From NCBI GenBank assembly GCA_016931715.1, contig JAFGEF010000040.1, positions 1 to 64,000 of the forward strand: a DNA stretch of 64,000 nt, written 5' to 3'. The notes under the pieces are model-generated. The model did not search any database, was not told the DNA's origin, and worked only from the letters and a program-made list of their open reading frames with translations. Position numbers and translations under genes: made by a program. How positions within the stretch are numbered: position 1 is the stretch's first letter; every line of letters begins with the position of its first letter. Shown in pieces: positions 32,861-45,754 of this stretch. The DNA is from Sedimentisphaerales bacterium. GTDB taxonomy: Bacteria; Planctomycetota; Phycisphaerae; Sedimentisphaerales; Anaerobacaceae.

Positions 32861-33220
32861 TTATCCGGAAATAGCTTTCCAGCTTTGATTCAGTTCTTCC
32901 ATTAAGCCTATGACATCACGAATCATTTGAGGGTCACGTTTTATATTAGCCTCATTCAAACGTAGATTCATAAAAGAATACAGCTTATGAAGATTGGATG
33001 CAATTTCGCCGCCAGCTTCCATATCAAGAACGGCATTAAGCTCATTAATTATATCCTGTGCTTTAATAATATATTGCCCCTTTGCCTGATAATTTCCCGC
33101 CTGCAGTTCATTGATTGCCAGCTTGAGGAACTTAATCGCACCTTCATAAAGCAGAACAATAATTCTTCCTCTGCTTTGTGTAGTAACTGCATTTTCCTGA
33201 TATGCCCCGATTCCCTTCAT
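32861..33220 (-). CDS. fliS: Flagellar secretion chaperone FliS
   Basis: 119 residues, a four-helix bundle with the FliS opening A-Y-Q-E-N-A-V-T-T-Q-S-R-G and L-L-Y-E-G-A-I-K-F-L. It holds flagellin unfolded in the cytoplasm until export by the flagellar type III apparatus. It lies 120 bases downstream of the flagellin gene on the same strand; no fliD is adjacent. A long imperfect hairpin occupies the gap to fliC. Confidence 0.92.
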   Translation of the reverse strand: MKGIGAYQENAVTTQSRGRIIVLLYEGAIKFLKLAINELQAGNYQAKGQYIIKAQDIINELNAVLDMEAGGEIASNLHKLYSFMNLRLNEANIKRDPQMIRDVIGLMEELNQSWKAISG

Positions 33221-33273
33221 GGTTTCTTTCCGATATTAATGTTTATGATAGACTTTGTGTTTATGACTTTGCA

Positions 33274-33309
33274 GGGAGACATCTGAATTTTCCGATTCAG
33301 ACATCTCCC
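33274..33309 (-). terminator. Long imperfect hairpin between fliC and fliS
   Basis: GGGAGACATCTGAAT (33274-33288) faces ATTCAGACATCTCCC (33295-33309), a stem of about 15 pairs with two mismatches and a 6-base loop. No T-tract follows on the minus strand, so it may be an mRNA-stabilising 3' structure for fliC or a partial terminator that lowers fliS expression. Confidence 0.45.
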
Positions 33310-33342
33310 CTTCAAGCCATTATATATTGAAAGCTTCTGCTA

Positions 33343-34158
33343 TTAACCCAGAAGGCTTAGCGCCATTTGAGGTACAGAATTAGCTTGTGCCAACATAGAA
33401 ACACCGGCCTGTGCCAACACCTGTGTCCTGGTCATTGCTGCCATTTCCGTAGCAACATCAACATCGGAAATACGTGATTCAGCAGCCTGCAGATTCTCTG
33501 TCTGGTTATTGATAACCGATATTGTGCTTTCGAGACGGTTCATCTTGTATCCGAACCTTGCACGAGCGGTATCCTTTGCAGTAATTGCTGCAGCAACTGT
33601 TGCAAGGGCAGACTGAGCAGCTTGCACAGAACTAATACCAGCAGTGTCAAGACTAAGAGCACTGCTTGTTACATTACAGCCTGATATTTCAACCACATCT
33701 GTAGTTGCGGCGCCAAACTGAATCGCTATGGAAGCTGAAGCGCTATTGAGCAGTTCGTTGCCGTTGAACGAAGTAGCATTGGCGATACGATTGATTTCAG
33801 CAGCCATTTCAGTAAATTCATTATCCATAATTAAACGCTGCTCATTAGAATATGAACCAGTTGCGGCTTGCTCTGCTAACTGTTTCATACGAATCAGAGC
33901 TTCATCTATTGTACCCATTGCTCCTTCGAAGGTCTGCAACATACTAATGCCATCCATAGCGTTGCGTGCACCCTGCTGCAACACAGCAATATCTGCACGC
34001 ATCAACTCACGAACAGCCAGACCTGCCGCATCGTCTTTTGCACTATTAATGCGCAAACCGGATGACAGCCTTTCGACAGACTGGGATAATTTATCATAGC
34101 TGCTTCCCAGGTGTCGTGCAGCATTTGCTGCCATAATGTTGTTCTTAATTGCTAACAT
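33343..34158 (-). CDS. fliC: Flagellin
   Basis: 271 residues, a minimal flagellin with D0 and D1 helices and almost no D2/D3 region. The N-terminal part has S-V-E-R-L-S-S-G-L-R-I-N-S-A-K-D-D-A-A-G-L, and the C-terminal part has R-I-S-D-V-D-V-A-T-E-M-A and Q-V-L-A-Q-A-G-V-S-M-L-A-Q-A-N. Subunits are exported and polymerise into the filament. AAGGAG stands before the ATG and a sigma-28-type promoter about 115 bases upstream. FliS, its chaperone, is encoded next. Confidence 0.96.
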   Translation of the reverse strand: MLAIKNNIMAANAARHLGSSYDKLSQSVERLSSGLRINSAKDDAAGLAVRELMRADIAVLQQGARNAMDGISMLQTFEGAMGTIDEALIRMKQLAEQAATGSYSNEQRLIMDNEFTEMAAEINRIANATSFNGNELLNSASASIAIQFGAATTDVVEISGCNVTSSALSLDTAGISSVQAAQSALATVAAAITAKDTARARFGYKMNRLESTISVINNQTENLQAAESRISDVDVATEMAAMTRTQVLAQAGVSMLAQANSVPQMALSLLG

Positions 34159-34494: not shown

Positions 34495-34839
34495 ATGGAA
34501 CAATTATTTTACAGGCTGGCCAAATCAAAGTTCCGAAGCAGATTCAGGCTTAATAAAAAAGAGTTACAGTATCTGCATGATAAAGGATTATCCGTTATAG
34601 AGCAGCATGCACGTGACTTTATAAAGGAACGCCTTGCTCCTGCATTACCAAAAAATGATGGAAAGCAGACACCAATGAGGAACCATCCTGTTTTCGTAGC
34701 TCAACATGCAACTGCTACGTGCTGCAGAAAGTGTCTTGCAAAATGGCACGGAATCAAGATAGGGCTGTCGCTTACTCAACAACAGTCAGATTATATTGTT
34801 TCAGTGATAATGTACTGGCTGAAGGAATACAATGAATGA
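34495..34839 (+). CDS. DUF4186 family protein
   Basis: 114 residues. Diagnostic segments are S-K-F-R-S-R-F-R-L near residue 12, N-D-G-K-Q-T-P-M-R-N-H-P-V-F-V-A-Q-H-A-T-A-T-C and C-L-A-K-W-H-G-I. Conserved His and two Cys pairs suggest a metal-binding site. The family is short, widespread and uncharacterised. It stands alone on the + strand, converging on the cyclotransferase-fusion gene 64 bases away. Confidence 0.88.
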   Translation: MEQLFYRLAKSKFRSRFRLNKKELQYLHDKGLSVIEQHARDFIKERLAPALPKNDGKQTPMRNHPVFVAQHATATCCRKCLAKWHGIKIGLSLTQQQSDYIVSVIMYWLKEYNE

Positions 34840-34903: not shown

Positions 34904-36898
34904 TTAAGAACCGGAAGTTTCCTGTATTTTTTCAATCTGCTGATTGAACATTCTAAGCTGCATATCAATGGCAGTAATCGCCCATTCAATATAATGCATT
35001 TCGTGAGCCGGTTTGTGATGCCCCTCGTTGAGAAGTCCGTCATGTACGGCCTTGAGAAACGTATTTATCGTATGCGTACTGATTTTATCGGGCTTTAGAG
35101 ACCATTTCTTCAGAAGATCGAAATCTTCGCGCAGCTTCTTCGACGAATTTAACTGCTCGGCTGTCAAATAATCACCCGGATTGATAGACAACTGAAGCCC
35201 TTTAAGGCACATAATCAGAGGCTCATAGTTAGCTCTTTCATCCAGCCTTATAAATTTATACTGCTGAACATACGTTGTCACCTGGGCGGGAATCCTTTCG
35301 CCAATATCATCTGAAGGCATATACCACTTTCGTTTATTGGTCCTGGCAAAAACAAGCTCCTCTTTTACCCTTTCATCCCCCTGGAGAGTTCCGCGTACTT
35401 TTTGTATTGCCTTGCTATCCGGCGGTTTTGTTATTTCATCGTAAACCATCCTTGTCACCCAGAGTCTCCCGGCACCTTTTAATTCAGGTCCGCCGCCAAG
35501 AGCCAGCAGGCATTTTGCAAAACCCAGAGGCAAAACTTTTTGTTTTCCCACCTGCCTTTTACGCATTTGAAATGAAAGATGCAAACTGTGTGTAGGGACA
35601 TTATAAAAACTGATGATTTCGTGTATTAATTGATTAAGAAGCCATGGAGCCGAAGTCGCAGGACGGGATAATTCTCCTGCTAAATTTAGCCTTCCGGGCG
35701 CAAGCTCCAAAAAGCCGCTGCGGCGCTCCCTGCCGGCTGAGCCGGAATGATCATCAATATATCCGCCGAGCTTCCATGATAATACATCCAATCCGAAATC
35801 ACAGAAGTATTTAAAGCCGTCATATATCGGGTCATGGGCTTTTGAAATGCTTCTTTTTGGCTCCACGGCCGCTGGTCCGAGATTGCTAAGCTCGATTTCC
35901 AGACCCAGAGGGATAAGACCAAACTTAAGATTCGAGCGAATCAGATTCAGCCTGGTGCTGACAACACGGCGATCAAACAAATCTCTTGCTGCGCGCACTC
36001 CGTATTTTACATAATCTATCAAATCGTTTTTCGTGTACGGCAGCTTCCGAAGACAATCATTAAGAATCATATCAACCGCGGTGCTGTTGAAATTAATAAT
36101 TTGCATTGCCGCAAGCAAACTGACCGACCGGCTGAAATATCTTTTAGAGTTCCGCATATTTTCCAGCTCAAAACGATACTGAGTTTGAATATGTTCGTCA
36201 AGCTGATTGAGCAGAACCTGCTTAACAACAAGAGCAAGGTAATTTTTAATAAAAGGCACTGCCTGCGGGTCATCATATAAATGCTTTATTGACGGGCGAG
36301 GCCTGTCAAGCTCGCGTTCGAGATAATAGTCACTGACTGCATCCGAGCGATAATGACTTATCACAAGGTCACGCTCGGTAGTAGCAAGAAGCTCCCTGTC
36401 GGCACGGCGCTCAGCTTCGGCATCAGCAGATCTCTCGCCCGGGCGGGTGCGCTTTTTAATGAAGCTTTCAATGCGTTTTCGCAGCCACAGCTCATGAATC
36501 AGGTTGACATGGAACCTGTCGCCAAAACGTTTTTTCATCGAATCATGAGAAACCAGGAAAGCCTGTGCTTTCACCGGCCCGTCTGCCGTATTGATGCGTA
36601 CGCTCTCTCTTTGGTATCGCTGACCTTCATACTTGTCTATCACCGCCATAGCATCGGAAGGTACATCGTAAATCACAAGTCCCTCTATTCTTGATGATTC
36701 AGAAGCTACCGCATAAAAATAAACATTGTCAGGACTCACTCTCCTGTAACCCTGTAAAAATGCAGGCTCCGCCAAAAGAACATCACCGCTGTCAATCTTA
36801 GCCGCTTTCCTTGAAAAATCCAGTCCGCAGACAGACTGAAATATTTTGTGATCACGCAAAGACCCATAAACAAACAGGTTCACTTTTTTTTTACTCAT
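34904..36898 (-). CDS. Gamma-glutamylcyclotransferase (AIG2-like) fused to a putative GS-fold amidoligase
   Basis: 664 residues. Residues 1-135 are an AIG2/GGCT-like domain: F-V-Y-G-S-L-R at 9-15 and the catalytic-type glutamate in D-K-Y-E-G (E91). A charged linker (140-180, rich in Arg/Glu) leads to a large C-terminal region that I read as an amidoligase of the glutamine-synthetase/GCS-like fold. It has G-L-E-I-E-L (332-337, the metal-binding GxExE pattern), F-L-E-L-A-P-G (397-402) and H-S-L-H-L-S-F (437-443). Amidoligases and AIG2-type cyclotransferases are known to co-occur in gene neighbourhoods that make or edit gamma-glutamyl peptides. The second assignment rests on motifs only and could be wrong. 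Last gene of a minus-strand run after GT2 and GT-C genes. Confidence 0.7.
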   Translation of the reverse strand: MSKKKVNLFVYGSLRDHKIFQSVCGLDFSRKAAKIDSGDVLLAEPAFLQGYRRVSPDNVYFYAVASESSRIEGLVIYDVPSDAMAVIDKYEGQRYQRESVRINTADGPVKAQAFLVSHDSMKKRFGDRFHVNLIHELWLRKRIESFIKKRTRPGERSADAEAERRADRELLATTERDLVISHYRSDAVSDYYLERELDRPRPSIKHLYDDPQAVPFIKNYLALVVKQVLLNQLDEHIQTQYRFELENMRNSKRYFSRSVSLLAAMQIINFNSTAVDMILNDCLRKLPYTKNDLIDYVKYGVRAARDLFDRRVVSTRLNLIRSNLKFGLIPLGLEIELSNLGPAAVEPKRSISKAHDPIYDGFKYFCDFGLDVLSWKLGGYIDDHSGSAGRERRSGFLELAPGRLNLAGELSRPATSAPWLLNQLIHEIISFYNVPTHSLHLSFQMRKRQVGKQKVLPLGFAKCLLALGGGPELKGAGRLWVTRMVYDEITKPPDSKAIQKVRGTLQGDERVKEELVFARTNKRKWYMPSDDIGERIPAQVTTYVQQYKFIRLDERANYEPLIMCLKGLQLSINPGDYLTAEQLNSSKKLREDFDLLKKWSLKPDKISTHTINTFLKAVHDGLLNEGHHKPAHEMHYIEWAITAIDMQLRMFNQQIEKIQETSGS

Positions 36899-36987
36899 AA
36901 ATCTTTCTATCGTGATTCGTGGTTTGTGATTGAGATTTGTAATTCAATTCCCGATATACGTGTCACTATTCACCATACACGAACTTT

Positions 36988-37743
36988 TCAGTTTCCGCCG
37001 CGGATTTTTTTGTGTAACTTAAATAACTCCTTAAACGCACGAAGAATTACCCATGGATTAGCGCCGGTCTGCACTCCGGCTGCACGCGGGTAATGATTCA
37101 CACCTTTTTGAGTAATTTTATACCCTTTTCCGGACGCCCTCGCCAGAATCTCCGTATCGATAAGAGCGCCGGTGCTTGAAAGTTTAATATTATCGAATAT
37201 TTCTCTTTTGTATAACTTGAAGGCACAATCGATATCACGAATTCTCAGGCCAAAGAGCGTGCATACGAGCTTTGTCCAGCACCATGCGTTAATTTTTCGA
37301 ATCAGGCTGTCCCGGCGTTTTATGCGATAACAGCTTACAATATCATAATGTTCCATCAGAGGCAGCAGCGGGGGCAGTTCTTTTAAATCGAATTGACCGT
37401 CACCGTCTGTATAAAAAACATATTCTTTGGATGCAGCCTTAAAACCGGACTGCAGCGCTGCTCCATACCCGAGATTCCTGGGATGGTGAATCGCTTTTAC
37501 TCTTTTGTCCTTTCGGGACAGCTCATCAGCTATTTGACCTGTTTTATCTGCGCTGCCGTCATTGACTATAATAATTTCAAAATCCAAATCGAGCTTATTT
37601 AATACTTCAAACGCCTGTTCAGCAGTGCGAGCAACATTCCCCTCCTCATTATAACATGGGAAAAAAACGCTTAGAGATTTTACAGCCTGCTGGTTACAAG
37701 AGGAGTCACCTGTCCGGGATTTATGGCCATAATCTTCGACCAT
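36988..37743 (-). CDS. Family 2 glycosyltransferase (polyprenyl-phosphate mannose/glucose synthase type)
   Basis: 251 residues. GT-A fold with F-F-P-C-Y-N-E-E-G, V-N-D-G-S-A-D-K-T and the metal-binding D-G-D-G-Q-F-D in place of DxD. No C-terminal membrane anchor is seen, as in Dpm1-like enzymes that transfer mannose or glucose to a polyprenyl phosphate. It lies six bases after a GT-C-like membrane protein that could use such a lipid-linked sugar, so the two plausibly act in sequence at the inner membrane. GGTGG precedes the start codon. Confidence 0.92.
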   Translation of the reverse strand: MVEDYGHKSRTGDSSCNQQAVKSLSVFFPCYNEEGNVARTAEQAFEVLNKLDLDFEIIIVNDGSADKTGQIADELSRKDKRVKAIHHPRNLGYGAALQSGFKAASKEYVFYTDGDGQFDLKELPPLLPLMEHYDIVSCYRIKRRDSLIRKINAWCWTKLVCTLFGLRIRDIDCAFKLYKREIFDNIKLSSTGALIDTEILARASGKGYKITQKGVNHYPRAAGVQTGANPWVILRAFKELFKLHKKIRGGN

Positions 37744-37749
37744 ATAATG

Positions 37750-40425
37750 TCACCACCTTTTTTCCATTCCTATTCTTCTAAGCTCGCTTAAACAAAAATT
37801 ACGCTGAGTATCATAAGTATTTTTTAAATCTTCATTTTTCTGTAAAACTGCTGCCTGTGCCAAGTAATAATTCGCCAATCTCGCTGCTTCTACCTTAAGA
37901 CGATAGCCATCGATTTTTCTCCATTCTTCGTGTTTTTCGTCAAAATTTTTAGCATACTCTTCGCAGAACTCTCTGACATCGCTGCGTAATTCCGCAAACC
38001 TGGCGGCATCAAGAATTAATGCTAAAATCGGAGCAGGAGAAGGATTGGCTTGAAACGCCAGTTTAGCATCCTTCAAACCCTGTTCTTTATCCTTCAACAT
38101 CGGCTCATACACCAGTAATTTATGAGCGCGGTTAAGATTCGCATGATATTCATCAGGATATATAGTCTCGCCTGTAAGAATACCATCGTAAAGTTTCTTG
38201 CCCTGCGGCGTCCTGATATCAACCAGCAGCTTTTGCTTGTCATTAAAGAAAACAAGTCTCCAAAACTCATGAAGCTCAAGCGACTTGAATGTATAGTAAG
38301 AGGAAGATTTTTCAGGATCCGGGTCATTAAAAATACTGGCCGGCATCAGCATCGTCCACACATTGCGTTTTCTAAGCTGCTCATCCATAAACTCGCCGAT
38401 TTCCTTAAAATCGTCTTCTGTAAGTACCAGGTTCCTGATTTTTGCCTCTCTGAGAATTCTCTGTGTTATTTCTCCTCCTGCCAGTATATAAGACCATTCG
38501 TCAAAAGTCACTCGATTATATGCAGCCTGCGCCCTGCCATCCATAAATAACTGAAGAGGCGTGAATCCATTAGAATCCGGCTCCTGTCCCCAGGCAATAA
38601 AACCGCCCTCGGTCCAGTAGTTAAACATTTTCCCCTCCAATTTATTATCTTTTATAAACTTCATAGTATAGAAGGGTTTTGCATCAGAAGCCGTCATCCT
38701 CATAAAAACAGAACTGAATTTCGGATCATTGGGCCACGGGTCAAGATAGACACACTTAAATTTCAAACCCCACCATGTCCCGAAAAATATAACAGCCAAA
38801 GCGCCAGCGGCAATAAATGTATGCTGAAGATTTCGCGGCATCTCAGGAATGACAAATTTTCCGCCCATAACAAAATTATGCCTGGCTGAAACAACATGAA
38901 TCAGTTGAGTCAAAAACATCGCAGCAATCGGGCATCCCGCAACGCCGGCTATCGGTATGAACCTGCGTGACCGAATAGCCATATAAATAGTCAGAGCCGC
39001 TATAATTATCATAACAATATCAATATGGGGCCACTGAAAACTGCCGGAATCGTTCTTTTTCCGACGAGGATACCGGCTGTCAGAACCGGGAACAAATATC
39101 ATGGCTAAAAACCAGCCGATAAATACAACACTTATAATGATAAACATTAATAAAAACGGTACTGCAGTACCGACAGGATTAGTCCAGTCAAACGCCGGAT
39201 GCCATTCATGAATGTCACGCCATCTCTCGGCATTTTTGCTTACACTGATAACAAAGGTATGAGTCAGGTTTGTCAGGTGGAAAGGATTTAATAAAATAGA
39301 AGCCAAAAAAGCAGCGATAAATGCCCCGATTGAATGATACACACCTTTCCAGCCCACAGAGACCAGCCTGTTCTTGAAAAAAATAAGGGTAATATCTAAT
39401 ACGACCAGCAAAATGGTAAACAGGAATAACGCTAATACAGTCGAAGTCTTAATTTTCACTTCCGGATCGTCTGGCACTGCTTTGGCGATTACAAAAAATA
39501 AAAAAGGCCATGCGGCAATATTGTATAAAATCGCTGTCCATTTTCGATTGAGACAGGTAAGCAAGTGCAGCCCGATAAACGGAATCATCATAATAAATAC
39601 ATATATATAACCGCCATGAACATTGCACCAGAAAACAACCAATGGAACGATAAGCCATATATACAATTTATTTCGATATAACGTCAGTGCGAGAATGAGC
39701 AGAAAAACCGCAACAAGCATATTTGAGAAACCAGCCGGACGAATATCGAGAAAAGACCTGCCGATAAACAGTGCAAAACATGAAAAAACAACCGCCAAAA
39801 ACCGATTTGCTCCAATTATCCGGGAGACGTAATAAACACAAATCACCGTAATAATATAAATTACGAATTTCCAATAAACCAAAGCATTGGACGTAAAGCT
39901 AACACCGTCTGCATATGAAGATTGAGGGACCAGCTTATAAAAAATAACATGCGTAAGCCAGTTCTGATTGATCCAGCCTGTCGAGTGAATCCACTTTACA
40001 AAAGATTTTTCCCACTGGGGCCAGTTTTCGAAATTTGCGCATTTATCAGCCCACCATCTCATTAGCGAATATTTCATTCCGCTTTCATATCCCGCATCTC
40101 TTCTAAGAGCATTGGCGTATTCAGTCATTGTTTCTACTGTCGGTCCTGCTTTATGTGAATTTGCACTGAAAGGCTCGACTGTATTCACGCCGTGATTTGC
40201 GAAATGACGCCCGCATGCCATTGCCACCCATGTATCACCGGCGGCAACCATATGCGTACAGGCATGAAATGTAAAAATAAGCATAGCTATCCAGCCCAAA
40301 ATCATAGGCCAGCCGGCAAATGCTTCACGTATCGCAGGTTTTACAGGTTCTTCTGCGTTCACGGGATTATTTGCTTCCTGTGCTCCCTGTGGATTATTTT
40401 GTTTTCTCTTTGCAGATTTATTCAT
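37750..40425 (-). CDS. Large GT-C-like membrane protein, possible lipid-linked-sugar glycosyltransferase
   Basis: 891 residues. A polar N-terminal 35 residues is followed by about a dozen membrane helices (to residue 560) and a soluble C-terminal domain of about 330 residues with helical-repeat character. The first external loop has G-D-T-W-V-A-M-A-C-G-R-H and later N-Q-N-W-L-T-H, the loop pattern seen in GT-C proteins of the PMT/ArnT-like clan found widely in planctomycetes. Catalytic identity is not proven. It directly precedes the GT2 gene (six bases), and the sigma/anti-sigma pair lies 140 bases upstream on the same strand. Confidence 0.75.
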   Translation of the reverse strand: MNKSAKRKQNNPQGAQEANNPVNAEEPVKPAIREAFAGWPMILGWIAMLIFTFHACTHMVAAGDTWVAMACGRHFANHGVNTVEPFSANSHKAGPTVETMTEYANALRRDAGYESGMKYSLMRWWADKCANFENWPQWEKSFVKWIHSTGWINQNWLTHVIFYKLVPQSSYADGVSFTSNALVYWKFVIYIITVICVYYVSRIIGANRFLAVVFSCFALFIGRSFLDIRPAGFSNMLVAVFLLILALTLYRNKLYIWLIVPLVVFWCNVHGGYIYVFIMMIPFIGLHLLTCLNRKWTAILYNIAAWPFLFFVIAKAVPDDPEVKIKTSTVLALFLFTILLVVLDITLIFFKNRLVSVGWKGVYHSIGAFIAAFLASILLNPFHLTNLTHTFVISVSKNAERWRDIHEWHPAFDWTNPVGTAVPFLLMFIIISVVFIGWFLAMIFVPGSDSRYPRRKKNDSGSFQWPHIDIVMIIIAALTIYMAIRSRRFIPIAGVAGCPIAAMFLTQLIHVVSARHNFVMGGKFVIPEMPRNLQHTFIAAGALAVIFFGTWWGLKFKCVYLDPWPNDPKFSSVFMRMTASDAKPFYTMKFIKDNKLEGKMFNYWTEGGFIAWGQEPDSNGFTPLQLFMDGRAQAAYNRVTFDEWSYILAGGEITQRILREAKIRNLVLTEDDFKEIGEFMDEQLRKRNVWTMLMPASIFNDPDPEKSSSYYTFKSLELHEFWRLVFFNDKQKLLVDIRTPQGKKLYDGILTGETIYPDEYHANLNRAHKLLVYEPMLKDKEQGLKDAKLAFQANPSPAPILALILDAARFAELRSDVREFCEEYAKNFDEKHEEWRKIDGYRLKVEAARLANYYLAQAAVLQKNEDLKNTYDTQRNFCLSELRRIGMEKRW

Positions 40426-40567
40426 TTTTTATTCTTCCATTATTTATCGTGAATCGTGAATTATGCTCTGCTAACCGTAATATTAATCACGAAGCATAAA
40501 TACTATATTATAGCTTCTTCTATATATCGTCAAGGATAAGGTTAAAGGTTGAAATATGCCCTAAATA

Positions 40568-40990
40568 TTAAAACACATTATTGGAAGCTATTTGACGCTC
40601 CCAATTCGTTAATATCACACTTTCCCTTTCAATATTCAGACGCGGCAGATTGTAATTAATCAGGTTTGTATCCTGTATAAAAGAATCATTCAAATCGTTC
40701 GGATTATTAATTCCCTCATGCGGGATATGTGGAGATATGGAAGGCCCGATATTTATTATGATTATTACAACCAATATCAAAACAATCGCGGCGCTCGCAC
40801 CATAACCCCATATTCCAAACCTCTGCCGGATCGGATGCACATAAACATTTTTGTTTGGTTCTCTCGGAATTGCATCGAGAAGTTTTGCTTTTAATGTCAC
40901 TGGGACATCCAACTCACCTATGGATCGCAATTTAGCTTTTAGTGATTTTAACGTAACTTCGTCCTTATTGAAATTCTGATTTTCTTTCAT
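40568..40990 (-). CDS. Putative anti-sigma factor, single-span membrane protein
   Basis: 140 residues from the ATG at 40990, two bases after the sigma factor's stop codon and preceded by AGGAT. A short cytoplasmic region (1-60) holds the sequence S-L-K-A-K-L-R-S-I-G-E-L-D-V-P-V-T-L-K. One membrane helix lies at about 78-98, and the periplasmic part is polar. No HxxxCxxC zinc motif is present, so it is not a ZAS-type anti-sigma factor. The call rests on position and topology. Confidence 0.6.
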   Translation of the reverse strand: MKENQNFNKDEVTLKSLKAKLRSIGELDVPVTLKAKLLDAIPREPNKNVYVHPIRQRFGIWGYGASAAIVLILVVIIIINIGPSISPHIPHEGINNPNDLNDSFIQDTNLINYNLPRLNIERESVILTNWERQIASNNVF

Positions 40991-40992
40991 GA

Positions 40993-41544
40993 TTATATCC
41001 TGCCAGATAAAATTTTTCTTAATTTTATTATCGCCTGATTTGTTCGCCATTTAATCGTTCCGACCGGCTCCATCAACACACTTTCCATTTCACGATAGCT
41101 AAGACCCTGAATATAATGCAGTACAATTACGGCATATTCCGCCGGTTCTAATTTCTGCATTGCTTCAAATATAATTCGTGAATACTCATCTTTCGTTATA
41201 ATCTTTAATGGATCCGAATCCGTTTGCGTTGCGAATGACTTTTCCCTGAATTCATCTGCTAATGCAGAACTCTGTCTGGATTTTCGTTCCGAGTCAAGAA
41301 ACTTATTGTATGCAATTCGATACAGCCATGTCTTTAGAGACGCCTGCTGCTTATAACCGTTAATATTAGCCCATGCAGAGGTGAAAGTATCCTGGGTCAA
41401 ATCTTCTGCGGCATTCTTGTCACCGCAAAGATATGCAAGAAAGCTGAAGACAGACTTATAATATTGACATATTACAGCCTCAAAGGCTTCCGGTTCGCCC
41501 TTTCTGATACCACGTAAAATGTGTCTTTCAAGCCCTTGCAGCAC
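40993..41544 (-). CDS. ECF-type RNA polymerase sigma factor
   Basis: 183 residues from a GTG with GGAG six bases upstream. Region 2 has Y-K-S-V-F-S-F-L-A-Y-L-C-G-D, D-L-T-Q-D-T-F-T-S-A-W and L-K-T-W-L-Y-R-I-A-Y-N. Region 4 has L-S-Y-R-E-M-E-S-V-L and G-T-I-K-W-R-T-N-Q-A. It probably controls its own operon in response to an envelope signal relayed by the membrane protein encoded next. The glycosyltransferase and amidoligase-fusion genes downstream on the same strand are candidate targets. Confidence 0.92.
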   Translation of the reverse strand: MLQGLERHILRGIRKGEPEAFEAVICQYYKSVFSFLAYLCGDKNAAEDLTQDTFTSAWANINGYKQQASLKTWLYRIAYNKFLDSERKSRQSSALADEFREKSFATQTDSDPLKIITKDEYSRIIFEAMQKLEPAEYAVIVLHYIQGLSYREMESVLMEPVGTIKWRTNQAIIKLRKILSGRI

Positions 41545-41652
41545 TCATTTCTCCAAATAGATAAGTTTGTATCCTTTACTAATAATATAGACGAATCAGA
41601 GTGCGCAGGTGTTTGCAAAAAAAGAAAAATTATCTAAAAATCTGCAAAATCA

Positions 41653-41811
41653 GTTACAGAACTAATGTTCTGTAACTTAACAAATGAAGGGTGTCATTCT
41701 GAGTGTGCCGTAAGGTATCCCTAAGGGAAAACGAAGAATCCGGGCATCGATAGCCAGATGTTTCGCCTTTCGGCTCAACATGACAACTTATCATATTAAG
41801 TATTACAGAAC
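41653..41811. repeat. Nested inverted-repeat element of the GTCATTCTGAG type
   Basis: Innermost arms: GTCATTCTGAG (41692-41702) against CTCAACATGAC (about 41774-41784), with internal CGAAGAATC and TTTCGCCTTTCGGCTCAAC. Outer arms: GTTCTGTAACTTAA (41667-41680) against TTAAGTATTACAGAAC (41796-41811). A perfect 10-bp palindrome GTTACAGAAC/GTTCTGTAAC sits at 41653-41676. It fills the gap between the sigma factor and aminotransferase genes. Sequences of this kind are dispersed in many bacterial genomes as non-coding mobile or REP-like elements. Confidence 0.65.
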
Positions 41812-41842: not shown

Positions 41843-43030
41843 TCAGCTTAGCCATTTTTCGATTCTATCCAAACCTTTGGTAATCTGCTCAAGTGAACAG
41901 GCAAAACTTAAACGCACATTATTGTCACATCCAAACGCATTACCGGGCACTAATGCGACATTTGCCTGCTCCAAAAGCGCTTGTGCGAAATTCATACTGT
42001 CTGTTATTTTTACACCGCCGATTTCACGCCCAAAATGGCCTGAAACATCAGGAAAACAGTAAAATGCCCCGGTCGGTTCCGAGCATTCGAGGCCCTTGAT
42101 TGCATTGAGACGTTCAGCCATATACTTGCCCCGGCGTTCAAATTCCAGTCTCATTTTTTCTATGGTCGGGCCGGCCTGTTCGCCCAGAGCAGCTATCGCC
42201 GCATATTGGGCAAAAGTAACCGGATTGCTGGTCATGTGATCCTGCAGACGACTCATCGCCTTAATTACATCGAGCGGTCCGGCGGTATAACCAAGGCGCC
42301 AGCCAGTCATGGAAAATGCCTTGCTGAAGCCGTTCATTGTCAGTGTTCTTTCAAATGCATCCTTGCTCACTGACGCAAAACTCACAAATTTCGTATCGCC
42401 ATAAACAAGCTTTTCGTACATTTCATCCGAAATAACGCTCACATTCGTTCCTTCAAGAACCTGTGCAAGCGCCGTTTGCTCATCAGGTGTATAAGTAAAA
42501 CCACCCGGATTATTTGGAGAATTCAGCACAAACATAGCTGTTTTTTTCTTTATTGCCTTTTTCAACTGAGCCGGGGTAATTTTATAACCGGTACTCTTAT
42601 CAGTTTGAATAATCTTTGGAGTTGCACCGGCAAGCTTTATCGCCTCTACGTATGTTACCCAGTACGGCGCCGGCAGAATCACCTCATCACCCGGGTCAAG
42701 AACAGCCTGCATCGCCTCATAAACCGAGTGTTTTCCTCCTATATTGACAACAACCTGATTAGGACTGTAGGCCAGAGCATTATCTTTTTGAAGCTTTTGA
42801 GCAATTGCAGTCCGCAACTCGATGATACCGGCTGCAGGTGTATATTTGGTTTTTCCGGCTTTTAAAGCTGCTATGGCGGCATCTTTGATATAGTCTGGCG
42901 TATCAAAATCGGGTTCTCCTGCGCCAAAACCTACTACATCTACACCTTTGGCTTTCAATTCCTGCGCACGCGCAGTTACCGCTATTGTAGCTGAAGGAGG
43001 CACATTTTGTGCTCTTTTGCTTACTTTCAT
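41843..43030 (-). CDS. Class I aspartate/aromatic aminotransferase (PLP)
   Basis: 395 residues, the subgroup I-beta size. Seen in order are the substrate-loop motif G-A-G-E-P-D-F-D-T-P, the P-Y-W-V-T-Y aromatic stacking segment, N-S-P-N-N-P-G-G, the S-D-E-M-Y-E strand with the pyridine-binding Asp, the Schiff-base lysine in S-G-F-S-K-A-F-S-M-T-G-W-R-L-G-Y, and R-L-S-F-A-C for the alpha-carboxylate Arg. Probably aspartate aminotransferase, though prephenate or other substrates are possible. AAAGGA precedes the ATG. Confidence 0.94.
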   Translation of the reverse strand: MKVSKRAQNVPPSATIAVTARAQELKAKGVDVVGFGAGEPDFDTPDYIKDAAIAALKAGKTKYTPAAGIIELRTAIAQKLQKDNALAYSPNQVVVNIGGKHSVYEAMQAVLDPGDEVILPAPYWVTYVEAIKLAGATPKIIQTDKSTGYKITPAQLKKAIKKKTAMFVLNSPNNPGGFTYTPDEQTALAQVLEGTNVSVISDEMYEKLVYGDTKFVSFASVSKDAFERTLTMNGFSKAFSMTGWRLGYTAGPLDVIKAMSRLQDHMTSNPVTFAQYAAIAALGEQAGPTIEKMRLEFERRGKYMAERLNAIKGLECSEPTGAFYCFPDVSGHFGREIGGVKITDSMNFAQALLEQANVALVPGNAFGCDNNVRLSFACSLEQITKGLDRIEKWLS

Positions 43031-44066: not shown

Positions 44067-45047
44067 ATGAATCCAATAGTAACATTAACAAAATGCAGCG
44101 ATTATAATACAAAAACAGTTGCTCACTGCCTGGAAAAACATTTTTCGCTTCAGGGGGGTCTTTCAAAATTTATCAGGCACGGTGACACGGTTTTGCTCAA
44201 ACCGAATTTTTTGACACCCGGGCCGCGAAGTGCAGCGGTACAAACCGACCCGGCAATTATTATTGAAACCGCGCGCTTGCTTAAAGATTTCGGCGCTAAA
44301 CCTTTTGTTGCTGATTCCCCTGCATGGAGTGATGTTTTTGCCTGTGCAAAGGCGCTGGAACTGGAAGAGCCTCTGAAAAAACTTGGAGTCCCGATAAAAC
44401 AGCTTAACAAACCGAAAACGTATCTCATAGGAACAAGCGATACAAAAGTTGGAATAAGCACTGTCGCTCTCGATGCAGACGCGATTATAAATCTTCCGAA
44501 ATTCAAAACTCACCAGCAGCTTGCTGCAACTTTCGCAGTGAAGAACATGTTCGGCTGTGTCAGCGGAAAAAGAAAAGCGATTATGCATTTCATAAAAGGG
44601 AACAGCAGCAACGAGTTTTGTGAGCTTCTTATTAATATATTTCAATTTCTTAATCCGGTCATTACAATAATCGACGCAGTGACAGTTATGGATGGTCCTG
44701 GACCGATTCACGGCAGGGCAAGACCTTTAGGCTGGATTATCGGCGGAACTGACCCTATAGCTCTGGAGATAATATGTGCCATGCTCGTTGACTTTGAACC
44801 GACGGCTATACCGATTATTGAAACTGCGAAACAGCTTAATTTCGGGTGCCAGGATTTTGAAAAAATACAAATCCTCGGCGATGAATTCCCAAAAAATATT
44901 TGTACGGACTTTCAGCCGGCAAAACAGATTCCTATCAGATTCACATTGCCGCGGGTCTGCAAAAGCATATGCAAACAAATCTGGCTTATTACAAAAGAGA
45001 CTATACAAAAATATCATGATTATAAATCTAAAAAAGCAAAATCCTGA
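44067..45047 (+). CDS. DUF362 domain protein
   Basis: 326 residues. Fold marks of DUF362 are V-L-L-K-P-N-F-L-T-P-G near residue 43, I-N-L-P-K-F-K-T-H near 148, V-K-N-M-F-G-C-V-S-G and A-V-T-V-M-D-G-P-G-P. The ferredoxin-like cysteine clusters that many relatives carry at the C-terminus are absent, so this is a cluster-free form. Function of the family is unknown. It ends two bases before the phosphatase gene. Confidence 0.9.
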   Translation: MNPIVTLTKCSDYNTKTVAHCLEKHFSLQGGLSKFIRHGDTVLLKPNFLTPGPRSAAVQTDPAIIIETARLLKDFGAKPFVADSPAWSDVFACAKALELEEPLKKLGVPIKQLNKPKTYLIGTSDTKVGISTVALDADAIINLPKFKTHQQLAATFAVKNMFGCVSGKRKAIMHFIKGNSSNEFCELLINIFQFLNPVITIIDAVTVMDGPGPIHGRARPLGWIIGGTDPIALEIICAMLVDFEPTAIPIIETAKQLNFGCQDFEKIQILGDEFPKNICTDFQPAKQIPIRFTLPRVCKSICKQIWLITKETIQKYHDYKSKKAKS

Positions 45048-45049
45048 TT

Positions 45050-45754
45050 ATGGAAAACTCTGAAAAAACAAGTAAAAAGACATCACAAAAAATAAGACCA
45101 AAAACACTTCGCCTGTTTTCATTCATTTGCTTTTGCCTTATAATTATCTTCTCAGCCTGCAAATGTCCCCGTGTAAGCTACACCGGAAAATATGTAATTG
45201 ATATTATCAGGAAAAAAGACCCGTACGTCAGGGCAACCGATAATCCCGGCTTGGCGCAGAAAATGGACCTGCCGGGTGTGCCCAATCTGCACAAAGTCTC
45301 CGATAGCTTATATCGAGGCGCACAACCAACCGAAGAAGGAATGAAAGAATTGAAAAAAATGGGCGTTAAAACAATAATAAATTTACGTTCCATTCATTCT
45401 GACCGTGATGAGTTAAAGGATGTTGATTTAGCCTGTGAGCATATTAAAATGACAACTTCAAAACCAAAAAGCGAAGATATAGTAAGCTTTTTGAATATTG
45501 TCACTGATAGTAATAACGCACCTGTTTTCGTGCATTGCCATTATGGCGCAGACAGAACAGGTACTATGTGTGCAATTTACCGAATTATAGTACAGGGCTG
45601 GACTAAAGAAGATGCGCTTGAGGAAATGACAAAAGGCGGCTTCGGATTCCATAGTATCTGGGGAAACTTACCCAATTTTGTGCGAAAGCTCGATATAGAA
45701 GAAATAAAGCAAAAAGCCGGACTCAAAGAAAAAACCGATAAGGCGACACCTTAG
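45050..45754 (+). CDS. Dual-specificity/tyrosine phosphatase-like membrane-anchored protein
   Basis: 234 residues. A basic N-terminus and one hydrophobic helix (about 20-38), then a cysteine in F-S-A-C-K-C that could be a lipobox. The phosphatase domain follows with the substrate-entry segment D-S-L-Y-R-G-A-Q-P-T near residue 87 and the active-site loop V-H-C-H-Y-G-A-D-R-T-G-T near 165. The HCxxGxxR(S/T) loop is complete, so catalysis is expected. This R-G-A-Q-P type occurs in many periplasmic phosphatases. Coupled tightly to the DUF362 gene. Confidence 0.9.
   Translation: MENSEKTSKKTSQKIRPKTLRLFSFICFCLIIIFSACKCPRVSYTGKYVIDIIRKKDPYVRATDNPGLAQKMDLPGVPNLHKVSDSLYRGAQPTEEGMKELKKMGVKTIINLRSIHSDRDELKDVDLACEHIKMTTSKPKSEDIVSFLNIVTDSNNAPVFVHCHYGADRTGTMCAIYRIIVQGWTKEDALEEMTKGGFGFHSIWGNLPNFVRKLDIEEIKQKAGLKEKTDKATP

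Follow-up and report, generated by a model that had tools for sequence, protein, structure and literature searches.

A conserved Sedimentisphaerales operon combining predicted membrane glycosyl transfer with a cyclotransferase/ligase-fold fusion protein

Main findings

We describe an operon of the order Sedimentisphaerales that lies in a 64,000-nucleotide stretch of a Sedimentisphaerales bacterium genome (GenBank assembly GCA_016931715.1, contig JAFGEF010000040.1, positions 1 to 64,000), hereafter called the window. The operon encodes an aspartate aminotransferase-like, pyridoxal phosphate-dependent enzyme (AAT), a multi-pass membrane protein resembling GT-C glycosyltransferases (GT-C), a family 2 glycosyltransferase (GT2), and a fusion protein that joins a predicted gamma-glutamyl cyclotransferase domain to a predicted carboxylate-amine ligase fold. 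In the window, genes for an extracytoplasmic function (ECF) sigma factor and a candidate anti-sigma factor are located between the AAT and GT-C genes. The row is a real, old, order-specific operon, and a chance arrangement is excluded. On balance we favor the reading that it works as a single Sedimentisphaerales unit in which GT2 and GT-C carry out sugar transfer, the fusion protein acts as a glutamyl-amide enzyme on the same product or on a linked amino-acid pool, and the ECF switch is an insertion. This reading is built on the conserved order of the genes, their folds, candidate catalytic residues that do not vary, a promoter and, in relatives, an insertion scar, all of which are established at the level of sequence and model.

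Conservation and distribution of the operon

A preliminary description of the window had recognized five consecutive minus-strand genes separated by gaps of 2, 142, 6 and 89 bases, and both coordinates and gaps agree with ours. Its boundary was drawn too narrowly, since the first gene of the row is usually the AAT gene (41843..43030, minus strand, 395 aa), which was identified by synteny and a match to PDB entry 1j32 (E 1.8e-121) and lies outside those five. In order to compare the row with its relatives, 40 regions around the genes were fetched and open reading frames (ORFs) clustered (41 regions clustered), and 80 genome-collection loci were added, these being the best 80 of 111 stretches encoding a relative. 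The best 80 belong to Planctomycetota, including Phycisphaerae, Phycisphaerales, Sedimentisphaerales and Anaerohalosphaeraceae, and the closest among them is the Sedimentisphaerales metagenome-assembled genome Zod_Metabat.706, with 85% identity in the fusion protein.

The order within Sedimentisphaerales is AAT, GT-C, GT2, an alanine racemase gene in some families, and the fusion gene. Conservation of this order was the check that the preliminary description had itself proposed, and it held: in the set of loci collected by means of the fusion protein, a same-strand upstream GT2 gene is present at 66 of 67 testable loci, and a GT-C gene at 49 of 51. AAT was found there in 35 of 48, a count in which the 1.5 kb limit scores some short upstream stretches as misses; at the other 13 loci AAT is absent from the expected place or little upstream DNA is present. 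The exceptions are L153, where the fusion gene has neither GT2 nor GT-C nearby, and L162, where an insert separates GT-C and GT2. The AAT and GT-C genes overlap in 22 of the 35 loci (the overlap being 16 nt at 17 loci and 13 nt at five), as expected of one transcript, and at most loci the gaps within the row are short or negative. The genes flanking AAT and the fusion gene on the outside are common to no more than 14 of the 41 clustered regions. Most of the members fetched from families f3, f4, f88 and f89 have the alanine racemase gene; it is carried by 16 of 72 scored rows and accounts for one state change on the fusion tree. In family f2 (L109-L112), a gene for topoisomerase VI subunit A occupies the place of AAT before GT-C, in a bacterial order; the copy of L111 (3593-4681, minus strand) matches TOP6A-Spo11 Toprim with E 2.3e-60.

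The fusion protein was detected in 120 of 161 genomes of the order (E<=1e-3; G329 and G330 among them are weak partial matches) and in 50 of its 66 better genomes. In a phylum sample of 246 genomes it occurs in four, all within the order, and in none of 240 outside it. A GT-C profile matches six of the 246, one of these being a partial match outside the order. Among 61 relatives, GT-C is present in 56 and GT2 in 54 (E<=1e-40). We considered whether the fusion gene came from a phage or plasmid and set this aside, as no match was obtained in phage and plasmid collections or in viral contigs, the last searched with narrow patterns. The open-licence literature yielded no paper on this operon or the fusion protein, judged by title or the start of the abstract.

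It is possible, though we find it the less convincing account, that the row holds two independent units on one transcript: a GT2/GT-C pair glycosylating an envelope component, and an amino-acid unit (AAT, alanine racemase and fusion protein) serving peptidoglycan precursors or gamma-glutamyl metabolism. AAT and alanine racemase are indeed amino-acid enzymes, members fetched from families f2, f3 and f88 have GT-C and GT2 but no fusion gene, and the single change of alanine racemase on the tree is what a housekeeping passenger might show. Against this, the fusion gene is hardly ever parted from GT2, and the tight spacing described above recurs at most loci.

The glycosyltransferase pair

The GT2 gene (36988..37743, minus strand) encodes 251 aa with a Pfam GT2 domain scoring 108.9 bits. 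By phmmer it matches ArnC (E 1.9e-18), sll0501 (E 3.9e-16), which we take to be GtrB, and DPM synthase (E 1.4e-11); against the ArnC equivalog profile it stays below the cut-off. The protein thus resembles ArnC, GtrB and DPM synthase in sequence, although hydropathy gives no membrane segment for it. By this closeness it is probably a polyprenyl-phosphate sugar synthase-like enzyme, in keeping with the lipid-linked sugar synthase named in the preliminary description.

GT-C (37750..40425, minus strand, 891 aa) had been described as a large membrane glycosyltransferase-like protein with a soluble domain, and its predicted model (predicted local distance difference test [pLDDT] 82.6, predicted template modeling score 0.84) bears this out. 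Residues 31-740 match the oligosaccharyltransferase (OST) chains STT3, PglB and AglB with Z 15.3-21.6, membrane and soluble parts together, and the best realignment was with human OST-A (Z 21.6 over 447 residues). The Z scores were 16.4-16.9 against PMT and 15.6-16.5 against DPY19. Foldseek gave two matches below E 0.001, both to the C-mannosyltransferase DPY19, with CeDPY19 at the top. The tail (755-891) is a helical, TPR-like repeat (Z 7-9). Among 48 GT-C members no Pfam GT-C family was matched at E<=1; all 48 share N602, W604, T605, E606, G607 and G608 of the window protein's motif NYWTEGG (602-608). We therefore describe GT-C as predicted to be STT3/PglB/AglB oligosaccharyltransferase-like. 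It shares the fold of those proteins but has about 10% identity, another motif and the extra TPR-like tail. Furthermore, its neighbor is a GT2 of the lipid-phosphate-sugar type in place of an oligosaccharide assembly cluster. The GT-C enzymes DPY19 (C-mannosyltransferases) and PMT (O-mannosyltransferases) take their monosaccharide from a lipid phosphate, in agreement with the GT2 partner here; their Z scores of about 16 are below those of STT3. Together, GT2 and GT-C form a well supported glycosyl-transfer unit for which sugar transfer is the likely activity.

The fusion protein

The fusion gene (34904..36898, minus strand) encodes 664 aa, with a predicted model of pLDDT 82.5 that is weak around residues 340-360 and 490-540. 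Its N-terminal domain scores 52.9 bits against GGACT/AIG2 (PF06094; cut-off 22.8), a family matched by 55 of 56 fusion members (E<=1). Residues 3-129 superimpose on cyclotransferases with Z 10.3-14 (14.0 for 2g0q; 10.8 for human GGACT, 3jud). By profile and fold, this domain is predicted to be a gamma-glutamyl cyclotransferase of the GGACT/AIG2 type. It shares with GGCT, GGACT and AIG2 proteins the YGS motif (Y11, G12, S13) and E91, which is presumably the known catalytic glutamate of cyclotransferases; the fusion protein adds to them a helical linker and the ligase-fold domain.

The ligase fold was absent among the Foldseek matches listed and surfaced on VIA-align realignment. Residues 326-664 then aligned with Dop (Z 10.8, 9cku), PafA (10.5), GshAB (10.2), YbdK (9.9), gamma-GCS (9.8) and glutamine synthetase (about 9), the ligase-fold chains giving overall Z 7.1-10.8 and root-mean-square deviations of 4.3-6.2 against the predicted model. 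Every listed match that extends to the C-terminus falls in the glutamine-synthetase/GCS/Pup-ligase superfamily. From the fold match, the C-terminal domain is predicted to have the carboxylate-amine ligase superfamily (glutamine-synthetase) fold. PafA/Dop, gamma-GCS, YbdK, glutamine synthetase and Amidoligase_2 thus resemble this domain in predicted fold but not by any sequence match. No Pfam family matched the domain in 56 members, and Amidoligase_2 (PF12224) was likewise unmatched in the genome itself. A PDB profile search with the fusion protein returned two GGCT-type plant proteins only, leaving the C-terminal domain unmatched. An hhalign comparison of the C-terminal alignment with three Amidoligase_2 proteins was negative, which is a weak negative given the shallow profile (effective sequence number 2.3) and single-sequence templates. 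A Pup ligase/Dop assignment was dropped after the PF03136 profile matched none of 61 relatives, the genome itself included. By eye, the fusion protein and an Amidoligase_2 member present ExE, an acidic residue, E..P, a histidine pair and R in like order. The preliminary description had called this gene an amidoligase fusion; the union of a ligase fold with a cyclotransferase stands in the model, while membership of the Amidoligase_2 family by sequence (Pfam, hhalign) does not.

The residues Y11, G12, S13, E91, E334, E336, D382, E398, H437, H440 and R551 are invariant in all 56 members. Some of them bear on an alternative in which the C-terminal domain uses the glutamine-synthetase fold for hydrolysis or binding and is no active ligase, so that the protein would only remove gamma-glutamyl groups. 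The top-scoring match, Dop, is a depupylase on this fold and is tied with the ligase PafA, and the N-terminal partner, a cyclotransferase, is likewise a removing enzyme. We consider this explanation quite unlikely, since E334, E336, D382, E398, H437 and H440 are those expected of a metal/ATP site and the remaining matches are mostly ligases.

A pairing of the two activities has a precedent in butirosin biosynthesis, where the ATP-grasp ligase BtrJ adds and the cyclotransferase BtrG removes a gamma-glutamyl group in an antibiotic pathway. The logic of protection and deprotection resembles that of the fusion protein, but BtrJ and BtrG are separate proteins and the fusion is one chain. Both activities also occur together in the planctomycete phage Phage-ZRK32, whose genome is annotated with an amidoligase and a gamma-glutamylcyclotransferase; unlike in the fusion protein they are separate genes, and the available portion of the report mentions no linked glycosyltransferases and gives nitrogen metabolism as their proposed role (PMC10945688).

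The sigma/anti-sigma module

The sigma gene (40993..41544, minus strand, GTG start) encodes 183 aa in which sigma-70 regions 2 and 4 exceed the Pfam cut-offs. The anti-sigma candidate (40568..40990, minus strand, 140 aa), which accompanies the sigma factor in relatives, has one membrane segment (residues 67-85). Its start is best placed at ATG 40990, giving the 2-base gap; the automatically called ORF, which extends to 41050, is too long. No cysteine-bearing zinc motif of the class I zinc-binding anti-sigma type was seen in its 140 aa by eye. Across the row, Pfam domains above cut-off are confined to sigma-70 regions 2 and 4, GT2 and GGACT, and the scan assigned no family to GT-C, the anti-sigma candidate or the C-terminal part of the fusion protein. 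With regions 2 and 4 only, an adjacent membrane protein and a putative autoregulatory promoter recognized by its sequence, the sigma factor has the features of the ECF group.

The predicted promoter (CAAACACCT-N13-CGTCTA; 41588..41615, minus strand) is located 43 nt ahead of the GTG start and is the only exact site in the 4,548,764-base genome. Upstream of the sigma genes of 21 loci, the pattern CCAACACC-N13..15-CGTCTA occurs with no mismatch in 12, one in seven, two in one and four in one distant relative, counted over 13 scored letters. The exact two-box word is common to 12 of 20 sigma upstream sequences, compared with at most four in 20 mononucleotide shuffles. Two sigma relatives located off the operon (L130 and L132) carry the same promoter and a distant one (L079) does not; the promoter therefore travels with the sigma family and not with the operon.

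Sigma relatives (E<=1e-30) were found in 20 of the 161 genomes of the order, and in 18 of these 20 the sigma relative is followed by GT-C within 2.5 kb, so that 18 of 161 have it at this place. Stress control, which the preliminary description had treated as part of the system, is thus a lineage-specific addition: a sigma gene with its own promoter does stand directly upstream in the window, but it is no constant part of the row. Its presence changes seven times on a quick fusion tree (11 carriers and 34 non-carriers scored of 81 rows), and this count by itself does not tell gain from loss.

A decayed 3' end of AAT lies directly before GT-C in six of the 18 sigma loci (reached by 0 of 300 shuffles in each), and a seventh probably carries such a scar (3 of 300); in the other 11, the window included, it is absent or too decayed. 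The shuffles kept letter pairs as blocks and not full dinucleotide content, and the window AAT served as the query at six of the 18 loci, where no own copy was in reach. Because the AAT/GT-C overlap recurs in distant families and decayed AAT ends are found in sigma loci, the sigma module was probably inserted later into an older AAT/GT-C junction, leaving the old AAT end behind. The wording of the preliminary description suggests instead that the sigma factor is at the core of a broader envelope-stress regulon to which this operon belongs, a reading that we consider very unlikely. In its favor, a conserved autoregulatory promoter lies directly upstream of the sigma gene, and that gene recurs at this position in 18 genomes. 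Against it, the sigma gene is missing from this position in most operon-bearing genomes, this genome has a single exact copy of the promoter, and the scars suggest later insertion. Across 39 genomes, nine exact sites lie apart from the sigma gene compared with 43 for a reversed control pattern, and we claim no regulon beyond the operon.

Proposed pathway

In the single-operon reading that we favor, GT2 would use a nucleotide donor to attach a sugar to polyprenyl phosphate on the cytoplasmic side, and GT-C would take the lipid-linked sugar at the membrane's outer face and pass it to an acceptor. The combination of DPM synthase with PMT or DPY19 follows the same established logic of lipid-phosphate-sugar glycosyl transfer across a membrane. 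The acceptor is most likely a protein, given that GT-C agrees in fold with protein glycosyltransferases in both its membrane and its soluble parts and ends in a TPR-like tail. In the cytoplasm, the ligase domain of the fusion protein would form, and its cyclotransferase domain break, a gamma-glutamyl or similar amide. Its substrate would be either a precursor of that product or a connected pool of amino acids fed by AAT and, in some families, alanine racemase. The tie of the fusion enzyme to the glycan is one that we infer from gene linkage alone. Where the sigma module is present, a membrane signal may inactivate the anti-sigma factor, whereupon the sigma promoter would drive the sigma and anti-sigma genes and, by read-through (across a 142-base gap in the case of the window), the genes for GT-C, GT2 and the fusion protein.

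The preliminary description had envisaged an envelope-modification system under stress control that might build a glycosylated or gamma-glutamylated surface polymer. That picture is borne out in part. Sugar transfer is likely, and the gamma-glutamyl step is predicted from folds. A gamma-glutamylated surface polymer, as then worded, was not upheld, since hydropathy gives no membrane segment for the fusion protein and it would therefore act inside the cell.

Several observations weigh against the single-operon reading. Neighborhood is no proof of one pathway, and AAT and alanine racemase are housekeeping enzymes that may only share the transcript. The fetched f2, f3 and f88 members with GT-C and GT2 but no fusion gene indicate that glycosyl transfer can do without the fusion protein. 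The ligase-fold match depends on a predicted model and a Z of about 10, and sequence comparisons give it no support. The acceptor motif type of STT3 is WWDYG, which is absent letter for letter from GT-C, where NYWTEGG is found. Finally, the window lacks an AAT insertion scar (score 16, reached by 270 of 300 shuffles).

A bolder version, which we think unlikely, is that the fusion protein is a single-chain enzyme for writing and erasing gamma-glutamyl amides, dedicated to OST-like glycosylation, that caps and uncaps an amine on a sugar or peptide precursor before GT-C transfer, the pathway having been captured by the inserted ECF switch in several lineages. Protein glycosylation is not known to include such a step of protection and deprotection, and if the gamma-glutamyl step is indeed part of the glycosylation pathway, it would introduce a type of chemistry that is new to it. 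For GT-C and the ligase-fold half of the fusion protein, both outside Pfam coverage, folds, invariant residues and a close genomic setting are now in hand, which makes their function directly testable. The patchy sigma module and its scars offer a sequence-level view of a local ECF switch taking over part of an existing operon.

Neighboring features

Genes for flagellin and FliS (32861-34158, minus strand) are found directly downstream of the row, an arrangement common to one near relative only among the fetched regions. A link to flagellin glycosylation was considered and dropped, as the pair is downstream only in the window and that relative. A DUF4186 gene (34495-34839, plus strand; E 1.3e-51) is convergent with the fusion gene. 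The gap between the AAT and sigma genes (41660-41810) contains an interspersed-repeat-like stretch, TGTTGAGC...GAAACATCTGG...CTCAGAATGACA, whose core occurs once in a search of the window. Further along, a gene for a PTP-NADK family dual-specificity tyrosine phosphatase-like protein (45050-45754, plus strand; E 8.3e-21) adjoins a DUF362 gene (44067-45047).

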